This document shows positions 5,126-25,260 of a stretch of 25,558 nucleotides of DNA, piece by piece. Origin of the DNA: a virus; IMG/VR virus record IMGVR_UViG_3300013131_000226, positions 1 to 25,558 of that record. One strand, written 5' to 3'. Both the position numbers and the translations under genes were made by a program. The first letter of the stretch is position 1. Every line of letters begins with the position of its first letter. Under the pieces are notes generated by a model that ran no database searches, was not told the DNA's origin, and was given only the letters and a program-made list of their open reading frames with translations.

Positions 5126-5524
5126 ATGACACAAGAGATTACCGCCGGTAAGCTCGCGGCTACCTACATCAAAATCCGTGATAAACGGGCTGAGTTGCTG
5201 CGTGCCTATGAGGCTGAAGACAACGAGCTGAAGGCTGATTTAGAGTCGCTTGAGGAGCTGATGCTGGACAAGTGCAAGGAAGAAGACGCCGACAGTATCA
5301 AGACCCCATTTGGCACCATTATCCGCTCGGTCAAGCAGCGGTTCTGGCCCGCTGACTGGGAGATTTTTAACCAGTATGTAATTAACCACGAAGCCTTGGG
5401 GCTGCTGGAGAAGCGTGTACACCAGACCAACATGGCGCAGTGGATTGAAGACCATCCGGATGATCCACCACCCGGATTGAATATCGACCGCAGATATTCC
5501 GCCTCGGTACGGAGGGCCAAGTAG
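5126..5524 (+). CDS. Conserved phage protein with N-terminal coiled coil
   Basis: A 132-residue protein that I do not assign to a named family. Residues 10-55 form a charged, heptad-like helical region rich in Glu, Leu and Lys (from KLAATYIKIRDKRAELL to LEELMLDKCKEE). A middle portion, FGTIIRSVKQRFWPADWEIF, is followed by a C-terminal part with LEKRVHQTNMAQWIED and a basic end. It is the first gene after the 5052-5099 promoter and sits 54 bases before the SSB gene, so it is probably expressed together with SSB. Similar genes next to SSB genes occur in phages, which suggests a replication-associated role, not a structural one. Confidence 0.85.
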   Translation: MTQEITAGKLAATYIKIRDKRAELLRAYEAEDNELKADLESLEELMLDKCKEEDADSIKTPFGTIIRSVKQRFWPADWEIFNQYVINHEALGLLEKRVHQTNMAQWIEDHPDDPPPGLNIDRRYSASVRRAK

Positions 5525-5578
5525 CGGTAGTTGTAGTAGCAGTGCAGTGACCATTAACATAACCAAGGAGTAATAACC

Positions 5579-6463
5579 ATGAGTACAGAAGTCGCGTTGT
5601 TTAACGGCAAACTTCCCGCCCACCTGCGTAATCAGGAGATCGACGAAGTAACCAAGGCACTGGCTGGCGGTAGCGGTGCGTCGCATCGCCGGATCAGCAT
5701 TGAAGGCGGGGTGTTCCGCATGATCGTTAACGGTGAGCAGATGGCGGAAAACGAAGACCGTGCCATGAACATCGTTATCGTAGCCGCCGCACCTTCGGTG
5801 AACCGCCAGTATTATGCCGGCACCTACGTGAAGGGTAAATCTACACCCCCGACCTGCTGGTCGCCGGACGGCAAAACACCGAGCCCCGAGGCCGAGCAGC
5901 CGCAGAGTAAATCCTGCGACACTTGCAAACAGAACATTGCCGGCTCCGGCCAAGGCGATTCCCGCGCTTGCCGTTACCAGCAGCGGTTGGCGGTGGTGCT
6001 GGAAGGTGAGATGGACGGCCCGGTGTATCAGTTGGCACTGCCCGCTACCTCGCTGTTTGGTAAGGGCGAAGCAAACGCAACCAAGCTGCCGCTTCAAGCC
6101 TACGCTCGCTATCTGGCACAGAACGGTGTGTCGGTATCCCAAGTGGTGACAGAGATGCGTTTTGACACTAAAGCAGCGACACCCAAGCTGACCTTTAAGG
6201 CCACACGTCCGCTGGACATTGATGAGGTTGCCACAGTGAAGGATCAGGGCTCGACCATGGAGGCCCAGCAAGCCATCAAGCTGACTGTGTCCAAGATGGA
6301 CAAGAAGGCGGCGGAAGCGGAAGAGGAAGCGGAAGAGGAAGAAGTCGAAGAAGTCGAAGAGAATGTAGCAGAGCCGGTTAAGGTAGCACCGAGAAAGCCG
6401 GTAGCATCTCCAGACAAGAAACGATCCGCCGCTGCCGTCGTGGCACAGTGGGAAGACGAGTAA
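5579..6463 (+). CDS. Single-stranded DNA-binding protein with Zn site and acidic tail
   Basis: A 294-residue protein of the phage SSB type that carries a Cys cluster. Cys93 is followed by a WSPDG motif, then CDTC (113-116) and Cys131, a likely zinc site. The preceding region (40-80) is beta-rich with basic and aromatic residues. After about residue 243 the chain becomes a long acidic stretch (Glu-rich to about 265) and then a Pro/Lys linker ending in QWEDE. An acidic C-terminus with an aromatic residue near its end is typical of phage SSBs (T7 gp2.5) and recruits replication proteins. It has an AAGGAG ribosome site and ends 8 bases before a strong intrinsic terminator. The assignment is from motif and context, and the OB-fold itself is inferred. 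Confidence 0.85.
   Translation: MSTEVALFNGKLPAHLRNQEIDEVTKALAGGSGASHRRISIEGGVFRMIVNGEQMAENEDRAMNIVIVAAAPSVNRQYYAGTYVKGKSTPPTCWSPDGKTPSPEAEQPQSKSCDTCKQNIAGSGQGDSRACRYQQRLAVVLEGEMDGPVYQLALPATSLFGKGEANATKLPLQAYARYLAQNGVSVSQVVTEMRFDTKAATPKLTFKATRPLDIDEVATVKDQGSTMEAQQAIKLTVSKMDKKAAEAEEEAEEEEVEEVEENVAEPVKVAPRKPVASPDKKRSAAAVVAQWEDE
6317..6358 (+). repeat. Short tandem repeats coding the acidic SSB tail
   Basis: The 12-base unit GCGGAAGAGGAA occurs twice back to back (6317-6328, 6329-6340), followed at once by the 9-base unit GAAGTCGAA twice (6341-6349, 6350-6358). All units are in frame and code for Ala-Glu-Glu-Glu and Glu-Val-Glu. Expansion or contraction would change only the length of the acidic tail. 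Confidence 0.85.
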
Positions 6464-10174: not shown

Positions 10175-10374
10175 CCCACGACTTGGTTGAGCCTTCCTTA
10201 ATTACTTTGCTGGAAGTAGGTGACAGTTTTTTTGTTCCTACACTGAAGCCCCAAAGATATATAAGGCTGATGCTGGCGCACGCAGCAGAGCTGGACATCC
10301 ACATCAAATGCGTGGCCGGTATCGACAAGGAAACCGACCTGTATGGGGTGCGGGTGCTCCGCACCCCGGGTTAA
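10165..10374 (+). CDS. Small conserved phage protein, last of the left arm
   Basis: A 69-residue protein beginning 10 bases inside the previous gene. The motif EVGDSFFVPTLKPQRYIRLM, then a helix and the ending YGVRVLR, match a short phage/bacterial protein type I have seen but whose function is unknown. The last codons lie within a perfect hairpin and its TAA stop overlaps the opposing stop of the 1987-aa gene. The ribosome site is weak, consistent with translational coupling. Confidence 0.75.
   Translation: MPVTHDLVEPSLITLLEVGDSFFVPTLKPQRYIRLMLAHAAELDIHIKCVAGIDKETDLYGVRVLRTPG
10345..10367. terminator. Stem-loop at the convergence of the two arms (weak bidirectional terminator?)
   Basis: A perfect 9-bp stem GGGGTGCGG (10345-10353) and CCGCACCCC (10359-10367) with a 5-base loop. 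It lies within the last codons of the 69-aa gene and 3 bases beyond the stop of the opposing 1987-aa gene. Neither side has a proper U-run, so simple intrinsic termination is doubtful; it may block read-through or protect RNA ends. Confidence 0.45.
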
Positions 10375-13300
10375 AAGCCAGCGTCGCGCCGCAGGTCGTA
10401 GGTCTGCTGCAACAACTGCTGCTGCCGGGTGTATATCTGATTGCGCTTTTCTTCCGTCATGTCACCGCGCTTGGCGGTTTTGTTCAGCGCGGCAAGCTGG
10501 TTACCGATTGCATTGACCCGGCCCGACAAGTTGAGCAGATGGCGGTTTTCTTGCTGGTACTGCCGCGCTTCCTCAAAGTTACCCCGATCACGTAGGTCTT
10601 TAAGATTGGCTTCCGCCGTGCGGACTCGGTCAGCAATTTCTTGGAAATCAGAACGCACGGCATTACCTTGCGGGTTGATGAAGAAGGCACCGACCATCGG
10701 GGTCTCATGGAGGCGCGGAGCCGGACGCTCGCCGACGGCGGACTCAATCATGCGTAGCAGGTTCAGCGCTTCGATGCCGGTACGGCCTGTCCAAGCAGTC
10801 AGATAGTTCTCGATAATGATCGGGCTCACACCCTTCTCGAAACCCAGCACCTGCATGGCAGACTCCAGCCCGGATGCCAGACCCTTGCTCAGCTCGGTGG
10901 TGCTCTGGTTGTATTGCTGGCTGGCTGACTTACTTTCCATGGACTTGCCGATCAGCGCGTGGCCGGTGAAGAATGAATGGTTGGTAGCATGCTCCACGAT
11001 CGGACGGGCCAGCGAAGGCATCATATCAGACGGGCCTAGCAGGATACTGCTGGCCGCAGAGGTGATTGCAGCGCGGCTCTTATGCCAGTCCTCGTTCGGA
11101 TCGTCCATCATCTGACGGGCGGTAGTCTCGGCTAGCACCTTGAACGGCAGCAGCTCGCTGGCTACGGGCATCTTCAGATTACCGGGGAACATGAAGTTAT
11201 TGTTCCGAGTAGCTGTTGTCTGATTCTCGTACTCGTCGTCGCCCATGTTGTATAGGGTGTGGGCCAAGGTAAAGGCCATCAACTTGCCCACCTGCCTGTA
11301 AACCATACGCATGGCGTCTTCTTTGTTCATACCGGGGATTTTGCCGGTCAGAGCGTCTACCATGCGGTGCGTACCTTGGATGCGCGCGTTAATAAACGGT
11401 ACAACGGTCATTAGAGCGGCGAGCGTGCGCGAGTTGCCCCGGTTATTAAAGTCGATCAGCATACGGGCAGCATGCTGGGCAGCAAACTCATCACCGGTTT
11501 CAGCAAAAGTTTTTTTGTATGCTGCTTCACGGGCAGCACCATCCGATGCCATGGCTACGGACTCGACCTTCTGTAGTGCTTGCTTCCACGGTGATACATC
11601 GCGTTCCAGCATCTCGCGGCGGAATGTATCCATACCGTCAGAAAAATCACGGGCGGCAATCACGCCGTATGAACGCAGTATCTTCTGCTCCACCGTCTCG
11701 CCTTTGATACCCTTCAACAGTCCTGTACCGACGTCCAGATAAGCACGTGCAAACCCTTGCCCGGTGCGGATAGCCACACGCTGCGCGTCTTGAGAAGTCT
11801 GTCCCCACACGAAGCCCGGCATAATGGTCACACCCTTACGCACCATGTTAGACAGCGAACGACCGATATGCCAGCCAATACCCGTCATCACCGGCGCAGC
11901 AGTGAACGCAGACGCGTCGTTCAGGTCATTGAGATGCAGGTGCACTGTCTCACCTTTGCGATTGAAAGACACTACATAGCGGTCGTTGGGGCTACCAAAC
12001 TTTCTCCACTTTGCCGCACCGACGGCTACCAGAGACTCACCCAATATGTTTGCCGTGTTGTTCTTGACGGCGCGCATGTTCAACCAGACAAGGTTATTAA
12101 ACGCATTGGTCATAGGGTCGCCGATAGACGCAGCGGAACCTGCGCCCAGATGATGCTCTTTTGCGGCTGTCAACAACGAGTTCAGATGGGTAGGCTCACC
12201 CAATGTATTTTGCAGCGACTCATCCATACGGTACAGCGGCAGGTATTCGGCGCGGTCCATATACTCCTTGGCTTTGGCTTCGGTGTATATACCGGATTCG
12301 ACCACGGCATCGACGGCATGGCCACGCATTACGTTGTAAGTATCGTGAAACTGCTTGATTAGCGGAGCCAGTTCGGGGTCAGCCCGCAGCTTGTCCGAAA
12401 AGGCTTTATCGGCTGCGGTGTAGAAAGATTTTTCAAATTGACCGAGTTTAACCAGCTGCTCCAAACGAGGGCCAAACACTGCCAACGCCATGGCGTTAGT
12501 AACCGTATTGGTATCCCCAGCATGCTGGGCCTCTTCCGTAAAGCCCTTGCTCATCAGCGCTTGCCGCAAGTTCTTGTAGTGGTCGGTCAGCGTGTGCATG
12601 TTGTTTTTGGAGTCTTCGACGGCTTTTACCCGACCCATTTTATCGATTACCATGTGGCCGATAGCCATGGCTTGAGACACTACACCGATGGCATTATTCC
12701 CCTGCGCGTTTGCAGCTTCAGCGGATACCCGCCCCAGATTTATTTTGCTGTAGGCACCCGTATCACCGGCGCGGTGCGTCTTGCCCAACAGCGAGTGGGC
12801 TTTGCCCAAGAAAGCATTGGCAGCGGCGTCAGTAAAACTGCGCTCCCCCAACCCCGAGTATTCGAGCATCCGATCCAGCAGTTTTTTGGGTTGCTCTTTG
12901 GCGGCGAACACTCGACTGGGTGCTCCGAATTTGGCGTACATCACCTCGCCGCGCTCAGCCACTGGCTTAGCCCCACGTTTACCTTTCGCCCCAAGCTCCT
13001 CCCGGACGGCGCCGTGCAGCAAGTCGATGAGGTCTTGACCCTCCAAAGGCTTGCCCATCCCGAGCTTGGTCAGCGCACCTTTAACGAGGTTGCGGATATA
13101 GGCCAAGAACTGCCCACCCAGCGTGTCAGGGCGAGGCCGCACGCCTTTTTTCATCAACTCTTCGGCGGTGTAAGCGATCAGCTCCTTGTACCGCAAGTGT
13201 GGGGGTGTATCCCGTGGAATACGCGCTTCAGCGTTACGCACCGCCGACTGCTCTACCGTACCCGCGCGCTGCCGCCAGCTGAGCACCTCAGTGGCTAGTT

Positions 13301-16300
13301 CAGTGACTTTCTCTTTGGAGCCCAGCAGCTTTTCAAGGCCGACGTGCTCACCCACTTCATGCAGAATAACAGCACGCTCTTGCCCTTTAGGGATGCGGCT
13401 GGCGACAAGGAATGCTTGGCTGCCTCTGAAAGCCAATGCTTGCGTATCCTGCTTAAACAGTCTACGCACATCGGCAGGGAGGTCGGATACCGAGTCAAAC
13501 ACCTGTAGCTTATTCTGGTTCCATCCTTCGCCGGCCAGCTCAGTGGCTGCTTGGCGGATAGACTGCACGGTAGCGGTCTGCTTTTCTTCGCCCATCGCGG
13601 CCAGCCTCGCTTCGGTGCCGGTTACTTCTGTCGGGGCTTCAGAGGCTGCTTCAGGCTCAGGCGTAGCCTCCTTACCTTTGGCAGCCCGCTCAGCGGCATG
13701 ACGTGCCGCGTCAGCATCTGCCAGCTCTTGCTGGCGCTTGGCTTTGGTTTGAGCTTCTAGCTGGCGTTCATAGTCGCGGGCCAGCTTAGCTGCGTCGCGC
13801 GTCTCCCGCGTGGCTTTATGCAGCTGTTTGTCGTTCTCGATACGGCGGGCTTCACGCACACGGTGCGCTTCAGCCATTTTGCGGTTTTCTGCCATATGCT
13901 TCGCGTTGATTTTAACCGCTCTGCTCAAGTCGCCTTTGGTAAACGACCGGTCGGTCAATCCCTTGGCGATAGCCTCAGCAACCCACGGAGTATCTTTGTT
14001 ACGCGCCATCCATGCGAGGTCGTCCCACCACAACCGCTGGGCTTCAAACCCGCCTTTACCGGCAGAGGCTTCTTTCAGCGTTTGCACCAACGGGGCGAGC
14101 TCAAATAAGGACTCAGGCTCCGCCGCCTGCCCGATCTTGCTGGTTTTCAACGTGGTAGTGGCACCGATGTCAGGCTCGACAGCCGCTGCGCGTTCTGCTT
14201 CAGTGGGTACCATCTCCGTCCACGATTTACCTGCTTCAGTCTTGGCTTGATCTGCTTCAGCTTGGAGCTTGGCTACCTGCCGTTTAATCTGCGCTTTACG
14301 GTTCTTGTCGGCGGTAGCACGCTCGGCTTCCAGCTCGGCGATCTTGGCTTGCAGGTCAACACCACGCTGCTGTGCAGCGGCTTCCGTTGCCTTGGCTTGC
14401 TCGTCTCGGGCAGCGGCTTCAGCACGCAGCTGTTCGCGGGCCCGTTCGCCCTGCGCGGCGCGATGTTCTTCGGTCAGTAGAGGTTCGCCACGGTCTATGT
14501 AATACGCCGTACGAGAAACTTCAGCCGAAGGCGGCTCCAGCGGTTGTATAGCACGCTCTTGCTCGTAAACCCGAGCATCATTAAGCCACATCTGCTCTTC
14601 TGGAGTACGCGGTGCTTCAATCGCCGGCGCTTCGGCAATCGGTGCCTCTGCTACAGGACGCTCTTCACCAGTAAACATATCACGCACCATACCCGGCTGG
14701 GTAGGCGGCTGCTTCGCTTTAGCAGCGGCGCGTGCGGCGGCCATCTTGGCTACCCAATCCGCTTTGGCCTGCGCTTGTTGCGCCTCAGTTGCGGCAATCT
14801 CTTCCATGAAAGGCTGTGCCCGTTCGGAATAGTACGCAGCGCGCGATGCTTCCGCCGAAGGCGGCTCCAGCGGTTGTATGGCACGCTCTTGCTCGTAAAC
14901 ACGGGCGTCGTTGAGATACATCTGCTCAGGGGCACGGGCTTCACTTACCTCAGGCAACACAAATGCTGGATGCTTCAGCCCGGCTTCGACTTTGGTTGCA
15001 GCGCTGGGGTGGTTTTCAGCGTAAGTCTCTAACGCGGCTTTGACTTCAGCGGCGACAGCCGGGTCAGTCAAAGATTTGCCTATGAAGCGCTCGCGGAGCT
15101 CCTTACCATCACCTTTATTGGCCACGCCCATCTGATTGAAGAACGCACGGTCGATGACGAATTGCTGCTCTTCCGGCAGCGCGCCTTGATACCCGCCTTT
15201 GGGCTGCTTAGGCATCTTGGTATCAGCGAACAGATCGCCCGTCTTGGTAACCCCTGCTTTGGCGGCTTTTTGCCACGCGGCGTCCCGAGCATCCTGCTCC
15301 AACCTTGTCGCCTGCTCCTGCTGCGCATCAGCCCACGTACGACCGAAGGCGTCCTCCGCTTTGCCTAGCATCTTTTCTTGTCGTCCACGCATACCGAACG
15401 CGCCCAGCGCGCCGAACACAGGAGCGCCGGCGATAGCTGCACCGGTAGCTTCACGCAGCCGGGCTTGCGCCTCGGGACTGCTCAGGTCTTCACCAGCCTG
15501 CGCCATGCGCATAGCCTCGGTGCCCACCATCAATGGTACGCCGACAGCACCGGCTTCAATCGACTTCATGGCGTAGTTCTTGGCTTGGCTATTCAGCGTC
15601 TGAATCGCCGCTTCGCGGGTCATCTGACCGTTAGCGACGGCTGTAGCGGTCTTTGCCAAGTCCGGGCCCATCAGCCGCATGGCTTCCATACCTTTACGGC
15701 CTAGACCGCCCAACACCGGCAGCAGCGCGGCTTGTGCCAAGCTGGTCATCAGGGTCGTGGCTCGATCAGTTTGTGGGGCAGCCCTACCTTCAAGGGCCGC
15801 CTGCCGGGCTACGGCTTCCTGCTCAGCGATATTGGCCCCTTGCTCCATCGGGAAGTCGGTAGCGATGAACCCCGCACCGCGCGCCAACGCGGCAGGTATG
15901 CCGGCTTCGGGAGCGACGACGGCGACAGCGGCACCAGCGGCGGTAGGTATAGCGTAGCGGCCGATCATCCCGCCAACGGGCTCGGATACATACTGACTAA
16001 AAGCGCGGCCTACACCGGGAAGAATACCTTGTTTGAACGCTTCAGCGGTCTCTTCTTTGGTAGTAGGCTTCCATGCACCGGGTTCAGTAGAGGGGGCTAA
16101 AAGGTTCTGGCCATACTGCTCCAGTGCGGTAGACCCGGTTAGATCAGCTAAGCCGCGCAGACCCCCACCGATGCCTTCTTTGAGGCCCGATTTGAGCGCA
16201 CCGGCAAACCCGTGCTGCTGCTTAATACCGTATAGGGTAGGAAATTTCTGCTGCGCGAGCTGCACCGCTTCGGTAAAGTCAATACCTGTAGGTACTTTGA

Positions 16301-16334
16301 AGTAACTACCGTCGGGTAATTTCATGTACGGCAT
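10371..16334 (-). CDS. Giant polyvalent-type internal virion protein with metallopeptidase-like motif
   Basis: A 1987-residue protein, last of the late operon. The start MPYMKLPDGSYFKVP followed by QLAQQKFP is a small N-terminal module often seen at the start of phage virion proteins. Residues about 124-160 and 196-210 are hydrophobic and Ala/Gly-rich, as in ejection proteins that insert into membranes. Residues 450-950 are long Ala/Gln/Glu/Lys coiled-coil regions with an internal duplication. ILHEVGEHVG (about 989-998) is a HExxxH variant of the zincin motif. It is followed by a region (about 1030-1100) rich in helices and then a large C-terminal domain resembling LPD38-type 'large polyvalent' domains. 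Such proteins are thought to be injected with the DNA. The enzyme activity is uncertain because the spacing is not HExxH. Confidence 0.9.
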   Translation of the reverse strand: MPYMKLPDGSYFKVPTGIDFTEAVQLAQQKFPTLYGIKQQHGFAGALKSGLKEGIGGGLRGLADLTGSTALEQYGQNLLAPSTEPGAWKPTTKEETAEAFKQGILPGVGRAFSQYVSEPVGGMIGRYAIPTAAGAAVAVVAPEAGIPAALARGAGFIATDFPMEQGANIAEQEAVARQAALEGRAAPQTDRATTLMTSLAQAALLPVLGGLGRKGMEAMRLMGPDLAKTATAVANGQMTREAAIQTLNSQAKNYAMKSIEAGAVGVPLMVGTEAMRMAQAGEDLSSPEAQARLREATGAAIAGAPVFGALGAFGMRGRQEKMLGKAEDAFGRTWADAQQEQATRLEQDARDAAWQKAAKAGVTKTGDLFADTKMPKQPKGGYQGALPEEQQFVIDRAFFNQMGVANKGDGKELRERFIGKSLTDPAVAAEVKAALETYAENHPSAATKVEAGLKHPAFVLPEVSEARAPEQMYLNDARVYEQERAIQPLEPPSAEASRAAYYSERAQPFMEEIAATEAQQAQAKADWVAKMAAARAAAKAKQPPTQPGMVRDMFTGEERPVAEAPIAEAPAIEAPRTPEEQMWLNDARVYEQERAIQPLEPPSAEVSRTAYYIDRGEPLLTEEHRAAQGERAREQLRAEAAARDEQAKATEAAAQQRGVDLQAKIAELEAERATADKNRKAQIKRQVAKLQAEADQAKTEAGKSWTEMVPTEAERAAAVEPDIGATTTLKTSKIGQAAEPESLFELAPLVQTLKEASAGKGGFEAQRLWWDDLAWMARNKDTPWVAEAIAKGLTDRSFTKGDLSRAVKINAKHMAENRKMAEAHRVREARRIENDKQLHKATRETRDAAKLARDYERQLEAQTKAKRQQELADADAARHAAERAAKGKEATPEPEAASEAPTEVTGTEARLAAMGEEKQTATVQSIRQAATELAGEGWNQNKLQVFDSVSDLPADVRRLFKQDTQALAFRGSQAFLVASRIPKGQERAVILHEVGEHVGLEKLLGSKEKVTELATEVLSWRQRAGTVEQSAVRNAEARIPRDTPPHLRYKELIAYTAEELMKKGVRPRPDTLGGQFLAYIRNLVKGALTKLGMGKPLEGQDLIDLLHGAVREELGAKGKRGAKPVAERGEVMYAKFGAPSRVFAAKEQPKKLLDRMLEYSGLGERSFTDAAANAFLGKAHSLLGKTHRAGDTGAYSKINLGRVSAEAANAQGNNAIGVVSQAMAIGHMVIDKMGRVKAVEDSKNNMHTLTDHYKNLRQALMSKGFTEEAQHAGDTNTVTNAMALAVFGPRLEQLVKLGQFEKSFYTAADKAFSDKLRADPELAPLIKQFHDTYNVMRGHAVDAVVESGIYTEAKAKEYMDRAEYLPLYRMDESLQNTLGEPTHLNSLLTAAKEHHLGAGSAASIGDPMTNAFNNLVWLNMRAVKNNTANILGESLVAVGAAKWRKFGSPNDRYVVSFNRKGETVHLHLNDLNDASAFTAAPVMTGIGWHIGRSLSNMVRKGVTIMPGFVWGQTSQDAQRVAIRTGQGFARAYLDVGTGLLKGIKGETVEQKILRSYGVIAARDFSDGMDTFRREMLERDVSPWKQALQKVESVAMASDGAAREAAYKKTFAETGDEFAAQHAARMLIDFNNRGNSRTLAALMTVVPFINARIQGTHRMVDALTGKIPGMNKEDAMRMVYRQVGKLMAFTLAHTLYNMGDDEYENQTTATRNNNFMFPGNLKMPVASELLPFKVLAETTARQMMDDPNEDWHKSRAAITSAASSILLGPSDMMPSLARPIVEHATNHSFFTGHALIGKSMESKSASQQYNQSTTELSKGLASGLESAMQVLGFEKGVSPIIIENYLTAWTGRTGIEALNLLRMIESAVGERPAPRLHETPMVGAFFINPQGNAVRSDFQEIADRVRTAEANLKDLRDRGNFEEARQYQQENRHLLNLSGRVNAIGNQLAALNKTAKRGDMTEEKRNQIYTRQQQLLQQTYDLRRDAGF
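14474..14920 (-). repeat. Internal duplication in the giant virion protein (110-residue period)
   Basis: A block coding LNDARVYEQERAIQPLEPP and its surroundings appears twice, about 330 bases (110 codons) apart: near 14474-14590 and 14804-14920. The 22 residues from LNDARV to PPSAE are identical in both, and the flanks (AAYYSER / TAYYIDR) still match. The intervening part is a coiled-coil segment, so the coiled-coil region seems to have grown by a 110-residue duplication. Confidence 0.85.
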
Positions 16335-16348
16335 AGGGTACCCCTATA

Positions 16349-17659
16349 TTATTCGCGCACTACGGCACCGGCAGGCGGTGTTTCTGTAAGTAAACTGGTG
16401 GTCGGAGCGGCCAGTTGAAGTCCTGTGATACCCTTGCTGCCCCCACCCGCATGCTGCAAGATGGCGTTGGCGATGGTTGTCTGATTCTGCACGGCTGCGG
16501 AGTAAATCTGCTTGGCTTCCAGCGCTTCGGGGCTGTTAGGCCCAGAGTTTTTTACCGCGTCGCGGTAGTTGCGCCCTGCTTCCGCCACGGCCTGCTGCGC
16601 CACGGTATGCAGCCCACCAAGCTCTTTGACATTGGCCGCCAGCGCTGCGCTATTGCCGGCCGCTGCCGCTTTATCCGCCGCATAACGAGACGCCTCCACT
16701 TGTTTCTGAAGCGAAAACATCCCGCTCATCAGGGCTTGATTAGACCTCACATCTTGTCCGCGCTCGGCCATAGCTTGATTAACCGCAGCGGCGCGCTCGG
16801 CGCGATCCATGTTGGCCAGCTGAATCTGCTGACCCAAGGCTTCCTTGCGTTCTTTCTCGATGTCGCCCATCTCAGTGCGGTACGCGCCCAATCCGTGCGT
16901 AGCACCTGTCGCCAGATTTCCCAAGAAACCCGCACGGGGACTCTCCGAGGCTGCCTGCGCCATACGCAATCCTGCTTCTGTCAGACCCATCCATTTGGCG
17001 CGGCTTGCGCGATCAGAGCGCTCAGCAGCGTCTTGCTTCAGCTGCTCACGGATAGAGTCAGCGTCAGCGTTGGGGCTGAGCACTTTCTTGATTTCAGCAA
17101 CGCGCTCTTCCAGCGATTTTTCAGGTACTTTGTATTTGTCATACCACGACTCATAACTGAGATCGCTGCTAGGTGCGGCGGCACGGATGCCCGCGCTGGG
17201 CGCTGCCGTGGGAGGCAGTGCTTCGGCCGGTGTAGTGACTTCTGGTGTAGGTGCGGTAGCGGGAGGCGTCTCGACCGGAACACTTGTGGGTGTAGCGGCG
17301 CGAGTAGGCATTAGGGCATCACCCCACCACCAACGCTCTGGCTCCTCCGCTTTAACTGTACCTTTACTGTCTTTGAACCGACGCACCTTGCCGCCGTCGC
17401 GGAAAGCGATAATACCCCCACCAGACATGGTCTGCACCTGCTCAGGCGGCGTTGAGGATACAACCTGCTGCGCGACACTCGGCGGCTGCGGCTGCGCAGC
17501 TGTAGCGGCCTGCTTCAACCGGTTGATCTCGGCAATACGAGCGATAATGACATTGGAGAAGCCCGCGTACTGCGGGTTACGCAGCAGAGAGACCAGCTGG
17601 GTTGGGTCTGCGATGCGCCCGATTATTGCTGCGGTCTTACCATATTCGCCCCTCTGCAT
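16349..17659 (-). CDS. Internal virion / ejection-type protein
   Basis: A 436-residue structural protein in the middle of the late operon. The N-terminus (PTQLVSLLRNPQYAGFSNVIIARIAEINRLKQ) is followed at about residue 80 by GGGIIAFRDGGKV, a glycine motif common in podovirus virion proteins. Then comes a low-complexity Pro/Ala/Thr linker (125-165), a charged segment with WYDKYKVPEKSLEERV, and a long helical C-terminal half (AAVNQAMAERGQDVRSNQAL, ALAANVKELGG) typical of DNA ejection proteins. The ribosome site is AGGAGGCGGT, placed at the stop of the upstream gene. No enzyme motif is seen. Confidence 0.85.
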   Translation of the reverse strand: MQRGEYGKTAAIIGRIADPTQLVSLLRNPQYAGFSNVIIARIAEINRLKQAATAAQPQPPSVAQQVVSSTPPEQVQTMSGGGIIAFRDGGKVRRFKDSKGTVKAEEPERWWWGDALMPTRAATPTSVPVETPPATAPTPEVTTPAEALPPTAAPSAGIRAAAPSSDLSYESWYDKYKVPEKSLEERVAEIKKVLSPNADADSIREQLKQDAAERSDRASRAKWMGLTEAGLRMAQAASESPRAGFLGNLATGATHGLGAYRTEMGDIEKERKEALGQQIQLANMDRAERAAAVNQAMAERGQDVRSNQALMSGMFSLQKQVEASRYAADKAAAAGNSAALAANVKELGGLHTVAQQAVAEAGRNYRDAVKNSGPNSPEALEAKQIYSAAVQNQTTIANAILQHAGGGSKGITGLQLAAPTTSLLTETPPAGAVVRE

Positions 17660-17667
17660 ACCGCCTC

Positions 17668-19008
17668 CTAGACCTTAGTACCCGTCGCTGCATTGTACGC
17701 GCCTAGACCGGCAATGCCCAAGCCTGCCAGCTGGCCGGCGACGTTCGGTGTGGGAGCGTACTGAATGACGTTCGATTGCGCGGTGGTGGGTGTACCATGC
17801 AGCAGCCCTGCCATCCAGTTCGCCTGCTGCTTACCGTAGTCGCGCTGGTTGATGAAGTCTTGATACGCAATGTCCATCTGCTGCTGAGTAAGCGCTTGTT
17901 GCTGCTGGCCCACACCCATCTGGGCATGGAGCCGCGCCAAGTCGGTTGCCTGCTGCGTCTGTCCAAGGCTTGCCAGTCCAGCGGCTTGTGCCTGCTCTGC
18001 GGAGAGCTGTTGCCCTGCCAGCTGCGCTTGCTGCCCGGCGAGAGCGCCGACCTGCTGTTGTTGCGCCAGCTCTTGCCCTGCCAACTGACCGCCGAACTGT
18101 GCTTGCTGCGCACCGATCGCCGCGAGCGCCTGCTGTTGTTGCAACTGATCTTGGAACTGCATATTGCCGATATTGGCCAGCTGAGACGCACCGGACATTT
18201 GCCGCGCCAAGTCCGCGTTGAACTGGAACATACCCGTCTGATACGCTTGGTTGGCCCCTTGCATCTGGATGTCGTTTTGCAGCTGCAACAGGTTGCGTTG
18301 CGCTTCAGCGTCGGCAATACCTTGACGGCTACCACCAAAAGCACCGGCCTTGGCAAACTGCGCCGACCGGCCAGTCATTTGAATGTCCGCTTGCCGCTGT
18401 GCTTCGCGCTTGGCGATGTCCGACACCGCTTGCTGGTACGGGTTCATGTAGGCAGCGACCATGGCGGGGTCTGTCCACATCTGGTTCATCGCGGCTTGGG
18501 TTGCGGTAGAGGCCGTACCGAATTGCCCCGGCTGCGCAATGCCTTGTACGCCAGCACCCGCAGCGGCAAGATTGCCCATACCCGGAGCGTAAGCACCGGC
18601 TACGTTGATGCCTTGAGTGCCTGTAATGGCCCCAGCGAGATTAGTTCCTGCGGGCTGATACGCATCTGCTACATTCTGCCCAGCGAGGATGTTGCTAGCC
18701 TGCCCGAATTGCGTGGGAGCACCTAAGCCAAGGATACCTGTCTGTGCCGCAGTTTGAGCGGGAGTGAACCCGGCGGTGCGCTGGCCAGTGTACGGTGTGT
18801 ACGGGTTATTGGCGATAGCCTCAGCACTGGCGACGTTACGGGTAACGTACGGCTCAAGATACGCGGGCAGGTTGGTGTTGGTGACAGTGGTATTTGTCGG
18901 AGCTGGGGGTGGGGAGCCGCCGCCGCAGAAAGCGATGTTACGACCGATAGTAATGGTGTCGAGGTGCCGGTCAAATTTGTCTTGGCTGTGAAGTTTAACT
19001 AGGCTCAT
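17668..19008 (-). CDS. Gln/Ala-rich internal virion protein
   Basis: A 446-residue protein. A short Pro/Thr-rich head (SPPPAPTNTTVTNTNLPAY) precedes a Gly/Ala region and the motif NPYQQAVSDIAKREAQRQADIQ. The second half is made of Gln/Ala-rich repeats such as AQFGGQLAGQELAQQQQVG, LAGQQAQLAGQQLS and EQAQAAGLASLGQTQQ, long helices expected to form a coiled coil. This is typical of podovirus ejection or internal core proteins. The start overlaps the upstream 157-aa gene by four bases (ATGA), with an AGGAG ribosome site. Confidence 0.88.
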   Translation of the reverse strand: MSLVKLHSQDKFDRHLDTITIGRNIAFCGGGSPPPAPTNTTVTNTNLPAYLEPYVTRNVASAEAIANNPYTPYTGQRTAGFTPAQTAAQTGILGLGAPTQFGQASNILAGQNVADAYQPAGTNLAGAITGTQGINVAGAYAPGMGNLAAAGAGVQGIAQPGQFGTASTATQAAMNQMWTDPAMVAAYMNPYQQAVSDIAKREAQRQADIQMTGRSAQFAKAGAFGGSRQGIADAEAQRNLLQLQNDIQMQGANQAYQTGMFQFNADLARQMSGASQLANIGNMQFQDQLQQQQALAAIGAQQAQFGGQLAGQELAQQQQVGALAGQQAQLAGQQLSAEQAQAAGLASLGQTQQATDLARLHAQMGVGQQQQALTQQQMDIAYQDFINQRDYGKQQANWMAGLLHGTPTTAQSNVIQYAPTPNVAGQLAGLGIAGLGAYNAATGTKV

Positions 19009-19478
19009 TTGGGACTCCTCGCGCGTTCCTCGCGTTGCAGATTCAGCAGATAGTTGTCATACCCCTCGGCATGTATGAATCGACGTATGGCTATTGTAGC
19101 ATCCACAGCCCATTTTGCACCACCAATTATCAGGGCGCATTGTGTCACAATCGCGGCATATTCGCTACGAATTATGAAGGCTATCTGCTTATCCGCGTCG
19201 GTTCCTGTTCGCTCCATGAAGGTGGCCGCTTGCCAGTGGATAATAGCGCTGGCGACCATGGGTTGCAGCTGGTTAAAGTGTTTCTGGTAGAACGCATTGC
19301 CGGGTATGGTAACCAGCGCGTGCCAGAAGGCTTCGTCAATCTGCGATGGGGATGCCGGGGCGTCCTTATCGATCAGATCGTCCCACAGATGGGCGACTTC
19401 CATGAGGCACAACAAAAAGTTCGCTGCGTCCGTATCGCCGCGTACGGCGTCCAGAACCGCTTGGGTACGATCAGACAT
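19005..19478 (-). CDS. Helical protein with a DDxxD-like motif, function unknown
   Basis: A 157-residue, mainly helical protein. Residues 29-39 read AHLWDDLIDKD, containing DDLID (33-37). A DDxxD motif is the metal-diphosphate site of isoprenoid synthases, but the chain is too short (those are about 300 aa) and no second Asp-rich motif is seen, so the resemblance may be chance. The rest is hydrophobic helix (FYQKHFNQLQPMVASAIIHW, ALIIGGAKWAVDATIAIRRF). It overlaps the methyltransferase by 8 bases and the 446-aa gene by 4, so it is translated as part of the same cassette. I do not assign a function. Confidence 0.8.
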   Translation of the reverse strand: MSDRTQAVLDAVRGDTDAANFLLCLMEVAHLWDDLIDKDAPASPSQIDEAFWHALVTIPGNAFYQKHFNQLQPMVASAIIHWQAATFMERTGTDADKQIAFIIRSEYAAIVTQCALIIGGAKWAVDATIAIRRFIHAEGYDNYLLNLQREERARSPK

Positions 19479-20166
19479 TGGACTCCTTCACAAAAAGATA
19501 CTCTACCGCCGACACGCACTGTACGGTAGACGGGTATTGTGGAGGCACCGGCAGCGCAGCGCACGACTGCACAAAGTCCGGGGACACACCTCGCCGAGAG
19601 TCGTAGAGATGGGCTAGCCGTAGTCCGGCGGCTTCCGCCGTGGCGATCACTTCGTCGGGGTCTCGGCTAAAATCATACGTCCAGTACCGCTGCGCATAAT
19701 CTCTTGCTTGGACAGCCTCAGGGCTATGCCCGTAGGCTATAAAATCCTTGCAGTAAAACTTGCCGCCGATGCTCAGCATGGTTGCAACGACCTTAACCAG
19801 TGAGTCCCAAGGCACATACCCGGCGCTCTCTACTGCCGTCACTAAATCCACACCATGAGCTGCCACGGAAAGCATATCCATTTTCAAAAAGCGGCTTTCA
19901 GGAAAGTTCTTTTTAGCATGCGCTACGTTCGCCGCGCTGTTGCTCACGCCGAAACAAAACACATTCTCCTTACGCATGGTATCCACCAACAACCCACTAC
20001 CACACCCAAGGTCAACCGCTACATCTCCGGGTTTGAGTTGCGCCAGCCGCAATATACGGGTCGGCATATCGCCGAAGTCCGCCGCGTTATACGTGCCTTT
20101 TTTCAGCACCAGTTCGGCGTGCATATCGTAAAACTCTTCACTGTTTTTCCACGGCAAGTCAGTCAC
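19471..20166 (-). CDS. Class I SAM-dependent methyltransferase
   Basis: A 231-residue Rossmann-fold methyltransferase. Motif I is VAVDLGCGSGLLVDTM (49-64). The second strand and its acidic/Ser region is CFGVSNSAANVAHAKK (71-86). The stretch FLKMDMLS (93-100) is the motif II/III region, and LVTAVESAGYVPW (108-120) is the post-motif strand expected to place the substrate. There is no DNA-methylase [DN]PPY motif, so a small molecule, protein, lipid or glycan substrate is more likely than DNA. It is embedded in the virion operon directly after a sulfotransferase-like gene, with 8-base overlaps on both sides. Confidence 0.92.
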   Translation of the reverse strand: MTDLPWKNSEEFYDMHAELVLKKGTYNAADFGDMPTRILRLAQLKPGDVAVDLGCGSGLLVDTMRKENVFCFGVSNSAANVAHAKKNFPESRFLKMDMLSVAAHGVDLVTAVESAGYVPWDSLVKVVATMLSIGGKFYCKDFIAYGHSPEAVQARDYAQRYWTYDFSRDPDEVIATAEAAGLRLAHLYDSRRGVSPDFVQSCAALPVPPQYPSTVQCVSAVEYLFVKESNV

Positions 20167-20674
20167 GATACAGCTCCGCGAACAAGTTTCTAATCACCGC
20201 CTTGTTGTACGGCACACAGGCAAACTCCGGTTGAATCTGCATCTTGACCAACTCATAGTGACGTTCAGGATCAAACGGCTTCTCCAGCAGGTACTCGTAG
20301 ATGTGCTGCGCTGCGTCCACATTAAATAAGTCAGCGGTAGTCACGTGGACACCGGCGATGCTGTCCAGCAGCGTGGTGACTTTATCTTCTTCCAAGGGGT
20401 TTACGCCCAGCTCTTCCAGCGAATCATTTATCTCCCGGATGTCGCGGTGCACGATGACCTTACGGGCTGGGTGCGCGTTTACGAACTCTGGGAACTGATA
20501 CAGCGCAGTGCAGGCGATGCCCAACGTTTTACCGGGCGACGAAAACTCATCGAGCCGCTCACGCGGCACTCGAAGAAGTGGGTCATGGACGCATATAGTG
20601 GTGTCGGTGCTGAGCCAGTTAGCCGCCCACGTCGTCCCAGAACGCGGTGCGGCGATTACCATAAAGTCGATCAT
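20159..20674 (-). CDS. Sulfotransferase-like protein
   Basis: A 171-residue protein whose N-terminus MVIAAPRSGTTWAANWL contains the PRSGTTW P-loop (10-16) used by sulfotransferases to bind the 5'-phosphosulfate of PAPS. KVIVHRDIREINDSL (72-86) fits the 3'-phosphate-binding segment (Arg and Ser). At 171 residues it is much shorter than typical sulfotransferases (about 250-350), but phage-encoded short members exist. The acceptor is unknown. The start overlaps the stop of the 536-aa protein (ATGA), and the end overlaps the methyltransferase by 8 bases, so the three small genes are co-translated. Confidence 0.88.
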   Translation of the reverse strand: MIDFMVIAAPRSGTTWAANWLSTDTTICVHDPLLRVPRERLDEFSSPGKTLGIACTALYQFPEFVNAHPARKVIVHRDIREINDSLEELGVNPLEEDKVTTLLDSIAGVHVTTADLFNVDAAQHIYEYLLEKPFDPERHYELVKMQIQPEFACVPYNKAVIRNLFAELYRD

Positions 20675-22281
20675 GCTGGCATCAACCTACCGGTTTTAAC
20701 TTGGGGGGCTTGCTTACTTTTACCTGTGCGGGCTTTGCGTACCGTGCTCACCATCTTGTCCAGCTTTTTAGCGCCGGCATTGGAGCTGCCGTTACCCAGA
20801 TGACTTACGGCATCGGCTGGGACAATATACTCACCGTCCGCTACGCGGATCGGCTCAGACACGCTACCACCGTCGATATAGGCAGGGATGGAGTCAGACA
20901 TACCATCGCCCGCGCCGCGAGTGAACATTGGGTCAAGGGAACCGCGATGACCGCGCAGATTCAGACTACCGCCCCGGGCGTAAGCGGCCACACGCTCGCC
21001 GTACTCTTTCATACGAGCATAACGCTCGTCTCTGGGGAGGCTCTCTAAACCGACCCGACCACCAGCAGCGTATGGGCGCATCACGGTGTATCCGGGAGCC
21101 TGCGTGTAGTTACTCAACTGGTTGCCAGTGAAATATGTAGCCTCACCACCGCCCGCAGGGGCAACCGGGTTTGCGACCTGCGTAATACCCGAGGTAGACG
21201 GCCCAGCCATATTAACTGCACGCATAAGCGGGCTATTAGGGGTAGGCTTCATAGCTTGTTTCAAGCCGTACGCACCCAGAGCACCGATACCCAAGGCTGT
21301 CTTGGGGTTAGCTGCGGCGTTGGCCATTAACTGCTGGGTGAAGCTAGGGTTGCTCGCGCTGACTGCTCGAGTGGCCATCTTGTCCCAAATAGCGGGCGTA
21401 GCGGTAGGCAGCTGCGATTGAGCACTGGTGTACGCCGTGGCGTAATCGACCGGGGTAGGGGATACCCAAGCCGGTGCATTAGTAGATGCCAGATTGGCCA
21501 TGAGTCCGGAGGGTTGCGCCGCAGGGGCGGCAGCTACCGCAGTAGGCGTAGCGGCGGCTACATTAACCCCTGCTGGAGTGGCGGACGGCAAGCCTAGTGT
21601 TTCCGTAACCCACGACATAGGACGGCGCGTGGCGGAAGCAATGTCGCTGACGCTAGCCCCTTGCCGGTAGTATGCGGTGTTCACTTTTTGCGCCAAGTCC
21701 AATTCTGAGCCGTACGCTGCCGGCGCGGATGCGCTAGGAGCCGCAGTAACCGGAGCCATTGCGCCGGGCTGAGCCAAAAAGTCCGTGGTCATCACATCAG
21801 CAGCGGAGGGGGTAGCGCCGGGAGCAGCAGCCAGCGGAGCGGTAGCTACCGCAGGGGGTGGAGTGATCGCAGACATAGCCGCCGTATCAGCAGTGTTCGC
21901 CGCTGCCGCCTCAGGAGCTAGCGTGGCAGCGTCAGCACCAGCACCCCAACCACTTGCCATGCCACCCAGAGCACCGCTCAGGCCGCCCATCAGCGCGCCA
22001 CGACCGATAGGGCCGCCCTCAATCGCAGAGCCCAGAGCGCCACCGGCGGCACCCGCCAGCATATAAGCACCGACGCCTTGCAGTCCGGGAATAAACATCG
22101 CAGCCATCGGGAGTATGGTACTCAGCAGCCCTGCCTCGGGGAGGCTTGTTTTGGGGTTGACCGGCAGGCTACGCAGCCCGCCAATTTTAGCGAGTGCGGC
22201 AACCTCGCCTTTGGTCATGTGTACGAGCTCGGTATCGGGGCCGCGTCCATGAGCGGCAATAGCTTGAGCAATGTGTTTCAT
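20671..22281 (-). CDS. Ala/Gly-rich virion structural protein (tail or ejection associated)
   Basis: A 536-residue protein with conserved ends and a low-complexity middle. Residues 14-50 (PDTELVHMTKGEV, then PVNPKTSLPEAG) match the N-terminal module of a podovirus structural family. Residues 48-110 are hydrophobic and Gly-rich, possibly a membrane-inserting segment. The middle (115-330) is an Ala/Pro/Thr linker. The C-terminal part has repeated Gly-Gly motifs (AAGGRVGL, YARGGSLNL, IDGGSV) and then DGMSDSIPA and VADGEYIVPADAVSHLGNGS, a strongly conserved phage signature. The ribosome site is AAGGAG. The precise position in the virion is unknown. Confidence 0.87.
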   Translation of the reverse strand: MKHIAQAIAAHGRGPDTELVHMTKGEVAALAKIGGLRSLPVNPKTSLPEAGLLSTILPMAAMFIPGLQGVGAYMLAGAAGGALGSAIEGGPIGRGALMGGLSGALGGMASGWGAGADAATLAPEAAAANTADTAAMSAITPPPAVATAPLAAAPGATPSAADVMTTDFLAQPGAMAPVTAAPSASAPAAYGSELDLAQKVNTAYYRQGASVSDIASATRRPMSWVTETLGLPSATPAGVNVAAATPTAVAAAPAAQPSGLMANLASTNAPAWVSPTPVDYATAYTSAQSQLPTATPAIWDKMATRAVSASNPSFTQQLMANAAANPKTALGIGALGAYGLKQAMKPTPNSPLMRAVNMAGPSTSGITQVANPVAPAGGGEATYFTGNQLSNYTQAPGYTVMRPYAAGGRVGLESLPRDERYARMKEYGERVAAYARGGSLNLRGHRGSLDPMFTRGAGDGMSDSIPAYIDGGSVSEPIRVADGEYIVPADAVSHLGNGSSNAGAKKLDKMVSTVRKARTGKSKQAPQVKTGRLMPA

Positions 22282-22291
22282 GGGCGGCTCC

Positions 22292-23398
22292 TTACTGGTT
22301 AATCTGGTTTACTGTCAGTATTATAGACGGGATTGCAGGTCTTACATAGGGTGTAGTCTGCGCAACGGTCGCCGCAAGCGAGGACGTCGTAGCGGCAGAG
22401 GCCCATATCAACTCAAAATAGTCGTTCGCCTGCATGGATAGCTGAAAGTTCCAGCTTGGAACGATGACATCCGAGTTACTTTTGATCGTTATTTCCGTCG
22501 CCGAGTTAGGCACGTCAATCCCATTGATGCGCGGCCATATAAACAAACTCTGGCTGGCAGCATTGGTGCTGCGCACCTGCGCCGAGAACTGAAAGTTATA
22601 ATGCCCCGCAGACTGGCACACGATACGCGACGCCGGCGTGCCTACGACAACTTTGTTTGACGAATCCGTGGTGTTAAATGTGACTGCTTGCGGGGTGTTG
22701 GCGACGGCGGGCACCTGTGTGGTGGTGTCGGAGAACGCCCCATAGGCAAGCGGTAGGGTGAGGGTCGGCCGTACCATGAGCACACCAGCGGCGGCGTCTT
22801 TTACCAGCACTGCGGCAACAGGAATGGTCAGGTTGGGTACCGTGGGCTTCACGTTGGTCAATGCTCCGGCGACTGTGGGGCTCGCATACAGGACATCGCC
22901 GACGTTCCATGCCGAAGTGTTCAGACCGGTGACTTCACCGAACCAAGTAACCAACCCTTTTTGCCCGGCAAGAATGTCCATGGCCGCCACGCCGACGGTG
23001 TACAGCGAAGGAATAGTGCCGTTCGCAATGTGCAGCCCCACCTGAGTCCCGCCAGAGATTACACCGGAAAAAGCGACTACGGAACCTTTTGTGATAGTAG
23101 TTGCGGTGCCGTTATACACGGGCGGGAAATACTGATCCATGCCGATGTGCTGCAACACAGAGTCCAGCCCCATGCCAATCGCTGGCGTGCCGTAAGTGTC
23201 GTTCCAGCTCAGCCGCGCAGGGGCATAGTCTGCACCGGTCTTATGGAAGTCAATGTACGCTGGAAACGCCAGCGCGCCGGAAAAGTTGTTGAGGCGCACC
23301 GCCTCAAGGTATTGCGTCAGTATCCGATGCGTGTAGTTAATATAGTCCGCATCGTACGCCTTGGGCGCAAGCGGGAGTGCTGGCGGACGGTAGCTCAT
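22292..23398 (-). CDS. Tail fibre or head decoration-like protein with C1q-like end
   Basis: A 368-residue protein. The N-terminus contains LSWNDTYGTPAIGMGLDSVLQHIGMDQYF, a motif of phage fibre/structural proteins, followed by small beta repeats (TITKGSVVAFSG, AGQKGLVTWFGEVTG, WNVGDVLYASPTVAGAL). The C-terminal 135 residues (from about 232, with AGHYNFQFSAQVRS, NGIDVPNSATEITI, QANDYFELIWAS) have the pattern of a C1q/TNF-like jelly roll, a common receptor-binding or trimerising end of phage fibres. Adjacent to the gp10-like hub gene with a 4-base overlap, it probably acts at the tail, but a capsid-fibre role cannot be excluded. Confidence 0.85.
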   Translation of the reverse strand: MSYRPPALPLAPKAYDADYINYTHRILTQYLEAVRLNNFSGALAFPAYIDFHKTGADYAPARLSWNDTYGTPAIGMGLDSVLQHIGMDQYFPPVYNGTATTITKGSVVAFSGVISGGTQVGLHIANGTIPSLYTVGVAAMDILAGQKGLVTWFGEVTGLNTSAWNVGDVLYASPTVAGALTNVKPTVPNLTIPVAAVLVKDAAAGVLMVRPTLTLPLAYGAFSDTTTQVPAVANTPQAVTFNTTDSSNKVVVGTPASRIVCQSAGHYNFQFSAQVRSTNAASQSLFIWPRINGIDVPNSATEITIKSNSDVIVPSWNFQLSMQANDYFELIWASAATTSSLAATVAQTTPYVRPAIPSIILTVNQINQ

Positions 23399-25260
23399 CG
23401 CTGGCCATCCTCACGGATGTCTATGCGTGGCGTGCCGAGCTGCCATGTGGTGCCTACTTGATTGGACTCAATCCGGAACGACATCTGCCGGCCACGTATG
23501 CGTGTCCAAGCCTGCTCGGTGAACTGCCCGAAAGGCACCACAGAAGTCTGCACGGTGTTCTTGGCATCGGTCTGAGTGAATGCCGCGCCGGGGGCTGACC
23601 GAGCTTTAAGTGTTAGGGTGACCGTCGGTTGTTGAGCAGTAGACCCGTCAAAATCCACATCGGGGATGATGCGTTGTACGAAACTGTAGTTCTGACCGTC
23701 GCCAATATCAAAGTCGGCCGACTCAAGAAATGCGTCTATTGGAGAAGGCGGTACTGTCGAACCATCGTCCATGCCGAGGTCGTGGTAGTAGACTTTACCG
23801 TCGTAGCCAGCGGCGAGCGGGTTCGGGCGCAGGGGGGAGTCCAGCCAAGCTGACCGCGACATGGAGCCGAAAGTCCAGATGTCTTCGACATAGTTGTACA
23901 CTACATACCGGTCAATCACGGTTGAGTTGAGCGAGCAATAGAACCAGATGACCTCGTTATACTGCACATTGGTGCCAGCCTGCACCTGCCCTATTTGCGA
24001 CATGTTCATGTTACTGAATACGTATTTACGCACGGTCGAATTAAGTGTCTGCACTTGCCCGTTGTACACGTAGAATTTATCTTTACCCATCCAGTACGCT
24101 ACGTTATCAGCCACCGCGACAGCGGTTACGGAGGCCACACTGATATTTTCTGCCAACGTGTTAAACGAGAATACGATTGGTGGCCCGACAAACTGCACCG
24201 TGATAAGGGTGGTGTCTGTCCATATCAGGTTTTCCTGCCGCACTTTTTTAGCGGCGTAAGTATAGCTACCTGCCGTAATACGCTGATCCCCTGCGGTGGA
24301 AGCCGCCGAAGGTGTCCAGTTAAGCGGATTGCCTTGGTCGCACCAGCGGATCAGCATAGGGTCTTCTACTGTTGAGCCTAGCGGGTTTGTACCGATAGCC
24401 AGCACGTGCTGATCGTCGGTGACCAGCAGATTATCCGCCACAGTCGGGGCGTCGCTCGCACCTGCTATGGTTTGAATAGCCACTGCCCGAGTGCTAAGCA
24501 TGGCATCAATAGAACCACCAGACGCTGACCAGTAATAGATGCCTCCATCTCGAATGGAGAATATAAAATCCTGACCGAAGTTATCGCCAACCCACTGGCG
24601 CATACCCGCAGTAACAACCCCGGGATTACTCGCCGCTGCCAGACCCCAGCCAGCGGCTCCGAAGGCACCAACACCTACACCGACGCCAGCGACCGACAAG
24701 GTTGGGCCAGTGTTGACTTGAAACGCTGCGGTTACTGTGCCTCCACCGGTGACCGCGCCGAGCGTGCAGGGCGTTGCGATGAACGTAAACGTGTTGGCGG
24801 TTACTGAAGTGATCTGGTGCTCGGTATTGAGCGTGGTCGCCAGAATACCGTCTACAGCCGTCGCCCCGGTGAAGGTAACGAAATCGTCAATGGCAGCCCC
24901 GTGAGCGACGGCTGTAACAGTAACCGTAGTCGACCCGGCAGTGCCGGTGGTAAAGGGGTTGGTCAAGACCACCGTATAGCGGATCGGCGTGATGTCGTAG
25001 AACGTCTGGCCGCGCTCAAGGTATATTTTTAAGTTAGTGCCAATGGCCAGCAGGTTCTCCCGCGCGATAGTAGCCCAGTTGTGAAGAAACCGGGCAACAC
25101 CCAAAAAGGTACCGGCACCAAGTAGCTGCCATCCGCCGATCTTCTCCGGAGTACCAGAACGGAAACGGATTTTATCCATGTCCCACCAGCCGCCTTCGTT
25201 GGTGTACCTAGTGTTCTCCCGATTCACCCCGGGCTTGAATGTCAGCTTTTGCAGCGGCAT
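23395..25260 (-). CDS. P22 gp10-like tail hub / DNA stabilisation protein
   Basis: A 621-residue beta-rich protein resembling P22 gp10 and podovirus tail hub proteins that plug the portal and retain packaged DNA. The start MPLQKLTFKPGVNRENTRY, then GGWWDMDKIRFRSGTPEKIGGW, is the typical N-terminal motif. Residues about 97-180 form an Ig-like beta insert (TVTVTAVAHGAAIDDFVTF). Beta-propeller-like repeats follow, e.g. MLIRWCDQGNPLNWTPSAAS (299-318) and AYWMGKDKFYVYNGQ. The C-terminus includes YNYVEDIWTFGSMSRSAWLD. The ribosome site is AAGGTG. Position between the lysis genes and fibre gene is consistent with the family. Confidence 0.93.
   Translation of the reverse strand: MPLQKLTFKPGVNRENTRYTNEGGWWDMDKIRFRSGTPEKIGGWQLLGAGTFLGVARFLHNWATIARENLLAIGTNLKIYLERGQTFYDITPIRYTVVLTNPFTTGTAGSTTVTVTAVAHGAAIDDFVTFTGATAVDGILATTLNTEHQITSVTANTFTFIATPCTLGAVTGGGTVTAAFQVNTGPTLSVAGVGVGVGAFGAAGWGLAAASNPGVVTAGMRQWVGDNFGQDFIFSIRDGGIYYWSASGGSIDAMLSTRAVAIQTIAGASDAPTVADNLLVTDDQHVLAIGTNPLGSTVEDPMLIRWCDQGNPLNWTPSAASTAGDQRITAGSYTYAAKKVRQENLIWTDTTLITVQFVGPPIVFSFNTLAENISVASVTAVAVADNVAYWMGKDKFYVYNGQVQTLNSTVRKYVFSNMNMSQIGQVQAGTNVQYNEVIWFYCSLNSTVIDRYVVYNYVEDIWTFGSMSRSAWLDSPLRPNPLAAGYDGKVYYHDLGMDDGSTVPPSPIDAFLESADFDIGDGQNYSFVQRIIPDVDFDGSTAQQPTVTLTLKARSAPGAAFTQTDAKNTVQTSVVPFGQFTEQAWTRIRGRQMSFRIESNQVGTTWQLGTPRIDIREDGQR

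Follow-up and report, generated by a model that had tools for sequence, protein, structure and literature searches.

In phage T7, gene 13 (PF11090), which Pfam describes as a probable scaffold protein, encodes a small protein and precedes genes 14-16 in the virion operon. A GNAT gene beside the internal virion protein genes of SIO1/Cobavirus has been compared with T7 gene 13, and a role in morphogenesis has been suggested for it (PMC6775973). Here we describe the same place in the virion operon of a virus record that was analysed over its whole length of 25,558 bases (the window) and whose virion genes are podophage-like. In this virus the place is occupied by three small genes, designated P1, P2 and P3. 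The position between the nozzle/closure genes and the ejection genes is shared with T7 gene 13; however, no sequence relation was found between T7 gp13 and P1, P2 or P3, and neither these proteins nor the GNATs and GNAT-like genes that we scanned in the equivalent slot of other phages matched PF11090. The P1-P2-P3 cassette does not represent a set pathway of three enzymes; it is one filling of a slot whose small enzymes are exchanged among phages.

The virion operon and its slot

The genes surrounding the slot are transcribed from the minus strand in the order stab621, gp368, gp536, P1, P2, P3, ej446, gp436 and a gene encoding a protein of 1987 residues:

stab621, 23395..25260 (-), packaged-DNA-stabilisation or head-closure-type virion protein (phrog_3287)
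gp368, 22292..23398 (-), small gene, tail- or fibre-like as judged from its position
gp536, 20671..22281 (-), structural-operon gene upstream of P1, forming one border of the slot
P1, 20159..20674 (-), compact protein with a predicted sulfotransferase fold, 171 aa (phrog_10855)
P2, 19471..20166 (-), class-I SAM-dependent methyltransferase, 231 aa, GTG start
P3, 19005..19478 (-), all-helical protein, 157 aa (phrog_21390, unknown function)
ej446, 17668..19008 (-), DNA-ejection-type protein (phrog_4287), forming the other border of the slot; proposed client
gp436, 16349..17659 (-), next gene of the ejection module, its function suggested by position
1987-aa protein, 10371..16334 (-), gene that ends the ejection module, from its size and position probably the large internal virion protein

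Gene starts are computed predictions. The stop codon of gp536 lies at 20671, giving an overlap of 4 bases with P1, and P3 overlaps ej446 by the 4 bases ATGA. Within the cassette the overlaps are of 8 bases, GTGACTGA between P1 and P2 and ATGTCTGA, preceded by AAGGAG, between P2 and P3. The coordinates, frames and overlaps given in an initial sequence-only reading of the window were exact in every case, and its proposal that the three genes are made together with virion proteins agrees with their location in the same operon, between gp536 and ej446. Overlaps of 4 or 8 bases are ordinary in this operon (stab621 and gp368 also overlap by 4 bases) and do not in themselves constitute a special signal. 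A foreign origin of P1-P3 on grounds of composition was rejected, as their GC and GC3 are the same as in the remainder of the contig. The C-terminal domain of gp536 (from 20671 to about 20940-21000), with the pattern DGMSD..PAYIDGG...DGEYIVPADAVSHLGNG...VRKARTG, is common to all close relatives with 41-74% conservation.

The slot is filled differently in other phages. GNAT genes occupy it in L106, L107 and CRP-901, a glycosyltransferase gene lies near it in HTVC027P, and in many relatives, of the L111 type, it is empty. Loci L188-L204 carry slot genes of 143-148 aa with no convincing Pfam match, which we call GNAT-like only because a related gene of ctjtQ328, annotated as 'putative acetyltransferase', matches their profile. 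The idea that P3 and the GNAT-like genes are strict alternatives was discarded, as both are present in L057, L068 and L069. The virion operons of related phages (L111:9453-10849 and about 18-25 similar loci) contain a gene for an acyl-carrier-protein-like protein of 95 aa without a Pfam match, together with a beta-ketoacyl-synthase gene (370 aa, PF02801/PF00109).

P1, a putative sulfotransferase, and P2, a methyltransferase

We fetched 75 viral relatives of P1 and read conservation in 43 representatives. The PRSGTTW motif, highlighted in the sequence-only reading as a PAPS-binding motif, lies at residues 10-16 and corresponds to a 5'-phosphosulfate loop of the PxSGTTxW type, with P10, R11, T14 and W16 present in 43/43 representatives and S12 in 42. 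The 3'-phosphate signature R-x7-S is likewise retained (R77 in 43/43, S85 in 42/43), its spacing of 8 matching that of R130 and S138 at the 3'-phosphate site of human SULTs. Outside the PRSGTTW residues, H30, R77 and R138 are invariant. The structure check suggested for P1 supported the assignment: the AlphaFold2 model (pLDDT 94.5) has a sulfotransferase fold, and sulfotransferases rank top in a fold search against the PDB (SULT2A1, E 3.8e-4; tyrosylprotein sulfotransferase, TM 0.60), in which kinases match too. P1 thus resembles the cytosolic and tyrosylprotein sulfotransferases (PF00685 and PF13469) in its loop, its R-x7-S signature and its predicted fold, but differs from them in being only 171 aa long, in scoring below the Pfam gathering thresholds (15 against 27 bits for PF13469 and 12.2 against 22 bits for PF00685) and in the absence from its sequence of the C-terminal GxxGxxK of cytosolic SULTs. 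Judged from conserved residues and the model, P1 appears to belong to a widespread family of minimal sulfotransferase-fold proteins whose PAPS-site signature is intact, and is a putative sulfotransferase. Relatives in cultured phages are annotated as 'hydrolase' or 'putative nucleotide triphosphate hydrolase' (phrog_10855), an assignment that the fold search does not support.

P1 is found in varied surroundings. An ejection or tail-tip gene follows it in about half of P1 lineages, and a recognised ejection gene is among the next three genes in at least 19 of the 43 representatives; the two profiles used to recognise ejection genes miss some of them, so that such neighbour counts, for P3 as well as for P1, are lower bounds. 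In the siphophage-type contigs L225 and L256, P1 is flanked by a tail assembly gene (phrog_778) and the tail-tip gene (phrog_1101). Its partners vary: it is directly before P3 in three other contigs (L020, L026 and L238), is accompanied by a cupin in L092, and at five loci is separated from the ejection gene by a PF05118 Asp/Asn beta-hydroxylase-like gene (L223:5504-6067, L228:5582-6124, L233:5506-6153, L250:5504-6046 and L276:3511-4083). Elsewhere it has no such partner, and many phages carry P1 without P3. In the other half or so of its lineages P1 lies away from ejection and tail-tip genes, for example in the DNA-metabolism operons of Nipunavirus, Pamexvirus and Abidjanvirus, and the client of P1 therefore need not be the penetrating protein. 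The proteins of the Pseudomonas siphophages NP1, PaMx25 and AAT-1 belong to the P1 family (phrog_10855, 33-45% identity), but are encoded in early or DNA-metabolism regions, whereas P1 of the window is in a virion operon.

The SAM-binding motif ascribed to P2 is also genuine (VDLGCGSG). With motif I (DxGxGxG), a Rossmann methyltransferase domain and a match to Pfam Methyltransf_11 (PF08241) at 6e-8 and 33.6 bits, against a cut-off of 21.2, P2 is assigned to the class-I SAM methyltransferases; PF13489 and PF13649 also exceed their own cut-offs. All NCBIfam families that would specify a substrate scored far below cut-off, and searches of viral contigs, phage records and bacterial genomes, two of them limited to near-exact short patterns, brought up no close relative of P2. 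A different methyltransferase occupies the P2 position, before P3, in the sister lineage L104/L105, which is among the nearest relatives by stab621; P2 and the L104 enzyme match at 29%, which may be no more than general class-I methyltransferase likeness. This is the only other lineage with a methyltransferase-P3 pair among the retrieved loci.

P3 in phages and beside bacterial adhesins

The DDxxD motif of P3 noted from the sequence is real and extends to DDxxDxD, with D33, D34, D37 and D39 invariant in 65/65 relatives; R104 (64/65), G120 and N61 are near-invariant. The AlphaFold2 model consists entirely of helices (pLDDT 95.4). P3 may be a metal-dependent enzyme. Its identification with a known enzyme was rejected, since searches of Pfam, NCBIfam, PDB sequences and PDB folds gave no significant match (best PDB fold E 0.4). 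The invariant first DDxxD raises the further idea of a reduced isoprenoid-synthase-like enzyme, handling a diphosphate substrate via DDxxD and Mg2+, and weak, partial fold matches to prenyl synthases (9b3t, probability 0.77, TM 0.51; 2f7m, TM 0.52; 3ph7, TM 0.54) and a profile comparison that places the DDxxD motifs of P3 and of E. coli IspB in register point the same way. However, neither the PDB matches nor the IspB alignment (hhalign E 0.094) is significant, the DDxxD of IspA does not align with the P3 motif, and P3 has just 157 residues with neither a second DDxxD nor an RR motif in sequence or alignment; we consider such an enzyme very improbable.

P3 is the conserved resident of the slot, found directly before ejection-type genes, mostly without P1 or P2, and also before gpJ in lambda-type phages. 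Loci were retrieved via short peptide patterns, taking the best 80 per search, and the counts given here are not frequencies. Among 48 representatives sharing under 90% identity, an ejection gene is one of the next three genes in at least 18; when representatives with a head-closure- or stabilisation-type gene among the three genes before P3 are counted as well, the number rises to at least 32. In the cases where PHROGs gives the gene after P3 a name, the name is that of a DNA ejection protein or of a virion structural protein. In the siphophage-type contig L078, P3 is located between gpI (phrog_32) and gpJ (phrog_31, E 1e-214). Most P3 loci contain neither P1 nor P2, as in the Achromobacter phage CF418P1, whose gene 5369-5842 belongs to the P3 family (phrog_21390, 41% identity) and lies amid structural genes, but lacks the P1 and P2 neighbours found in the window. 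The ejection proteins encoded after P3 (L006, L007, L012, L015 and L298) often have in common an N-terminal stretch M-[LI]-I-[KR]-[ST]-K..GY..DG.R..., after which comes a Gly-rich run; an N-terminal Met-Cys of the ejection protein was dismissed as a possible modified site because it is not general. Tandem P3-type reading frames of 216 and 96 aa are present at L016:5977-6889. In a Limnohabitans prophage-like region, a class-I methyltransferase fused to a PAPS-reductase domain (PF01507; L298:7279-8625) is encoded one gene past a pair formed by P3 and a structural gene.

A scan of bacterial genomes located P3 directly downstream of VWA/RTX adhesin genes in Halomonas, Billgrantia, Vreelandella and an Alcaligenaceae MAG; examples from the Halomonadaceae and the Alcaligenaceae MAG are as follows:

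L291:3005-3481, P3 gene after a VWA/RTX adhesin gene
L293:5980-6465, P3 gene after a VWA/RTX adhesin gene
L290:1753-2250, P3 gene after a VWA/RTX adhesin gene

These loci also adjoin genes for LapD (PF16448 and EAL) and LapG (PF06035), and P3 is found beside a LapA-type adhesin, LapD and LapG at nine loci. The likeness of the Halomonadaceae LapA/LapD/LapG locus to the phage slot lies in a P3 family gene placed right after the adhesin gene; the locus differs in being a bacterial surface-adhesin system with no phage genes recognised around it. P3 of the window shares 41-47% identity with the Halomonadaceae adhesin-locus proteins, and it is most like one of the adhesin-locus proteins (L302, 47%). 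In the P3 tree the adhesin-locus proteins form one group amid phage sequences; the tree is unrooted, with many weak forks and long branches, and gives no direction of transfer between phage and bacteria. Between two Halomonas genomes (L291 and L294), dN is 0.087 and dS is 1.79, which indicates that bacterial P3 is maintained by purifying selection. The pattern-limited genome scan demanded WDDLIDK, whereas a profile search of 121 genomes of one family did not, and it also found forms lacking the Trp; in that search 9 genomes carry P3, 3 in the adhesin setting and the other 6 in prophage-looking regions surrounded by tail-type genes.

Possible roles of the slot

The explanation that we favour, and to which we give an even chance, is that the slot is an exchangeable site for factors that help in the assembly or modification of the envelope-penetrating protein whose gene adjoins it. 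It lies directly before the gene for the first protein that would cross the envelope, in podophages the ejection protein. P3 would be the old resident, a dedicated partner that either aids assembly of the penetrating protein or modifies it as a metal-dependent enzyme, and P1 and P2 would be extra enzymes acquired independently, most likely adding sulfate or methyl to the penetrating protein or an assembly intermediate prior to packaging. We infer both the neighbouring protein as client and all of this chemistry, gene neighbourhood being the chief argument: P3 and P1 recur before the gene for the penetrating protein in phages with unrelated tails, and this, together with P3 beside a giant adhesin, points to the next-door protein as client. 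Counting against this explanation are the empty slots of many relatives and the very different chemistries of the slot enzymes, for which a single purpose is not obvious. A more specific proposal, tentative and in our judgement rather unlikely, is that P3 represents an unrecognised family of small metal-dependent enzymes or dedicated maturation factors for large envelope-crossing proteins such as ejection proteins, gpJ and LapA-type adhesins, and that P1- and P2-type enzymes sulfate or methylate the same client.

The slot enzymes might instead modify the host surface (LPS, capsule or receptor) late in infection, so that fewer progeny are lost on debris or other phages are excluded. Genes of the sulfotransferase, acetyltransferase, glycosyltransferase, methyltransferase and Asp/Asn-hydroxylase types are all known in surface-glycan and lipid A chemistry, LpxO being of the Asp/Asn-hydroxylase type, and such genes alternate in the slot, whose place beside adsorption and penetration genes would fit. 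We nevertheless regard this as unlikely, because P3 is small, helical and free of matches to glycan enzymes, the overlap is with the ejection gene and not with fibre or receptor-binding genes, and the presence of P3 beside LapA adhesins suggests that its partner is a protein and not a glycan. High turnover of the contents, empty slots, the lack of close relatives of P2 and the occurrence of P1 in several other genome regions would also suit a site that simply tolerates the insertion of small cargo genes with functions unrelated to the virion; recurrence of the same families at the same place across unrelated tail types, and the persistence of P3 there over great divergence, make this quite unlikely. 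The sequence-only reading had envisaged a dedicated pathway in which P1, P2 and P3 together modify a virion protein, a host surface glycan or a small molecule; in its favour are overlapping genes in one operon that each carry conserved or recognisable motifs. The part of it concerning the individual proteins stands, with a predicted sulfotransferase fold for P1, a methyltransferase for P2 and a helical P3. The coupled unit does not: in the neighbourhood check, the trio was found in the window only among the retrieved loci, each pair is rare, and P3 and P1 are mostly apart. That reading had itself named rarity of the three genes as neighbours in related phages as evidence against a coupled pathway, which is thus unsupported; we rejected it on gene neighbourhood and rate it as very improbable.

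A position for small enzymes by the ejection genes is already known in T7 and SIO1-type phages; here the position holds many predicted chemistries (acetyl, sulfo, methyl, glycosyl and hydroxyl). If P3 and the P1- and P2-type enzymes do act on a common envelope-crossing client, phage morphogenesis would have a new step, the marking of the penetration apparatus by enzymes. The recurrence of P3 before gpJ and beside adhesin operons means that a 'hypothetical protein' can be tested as a partner of proteins that cross the envelope, both in culturable Halomonas hosts and in the cultured Achromobacter phage CF418P1.
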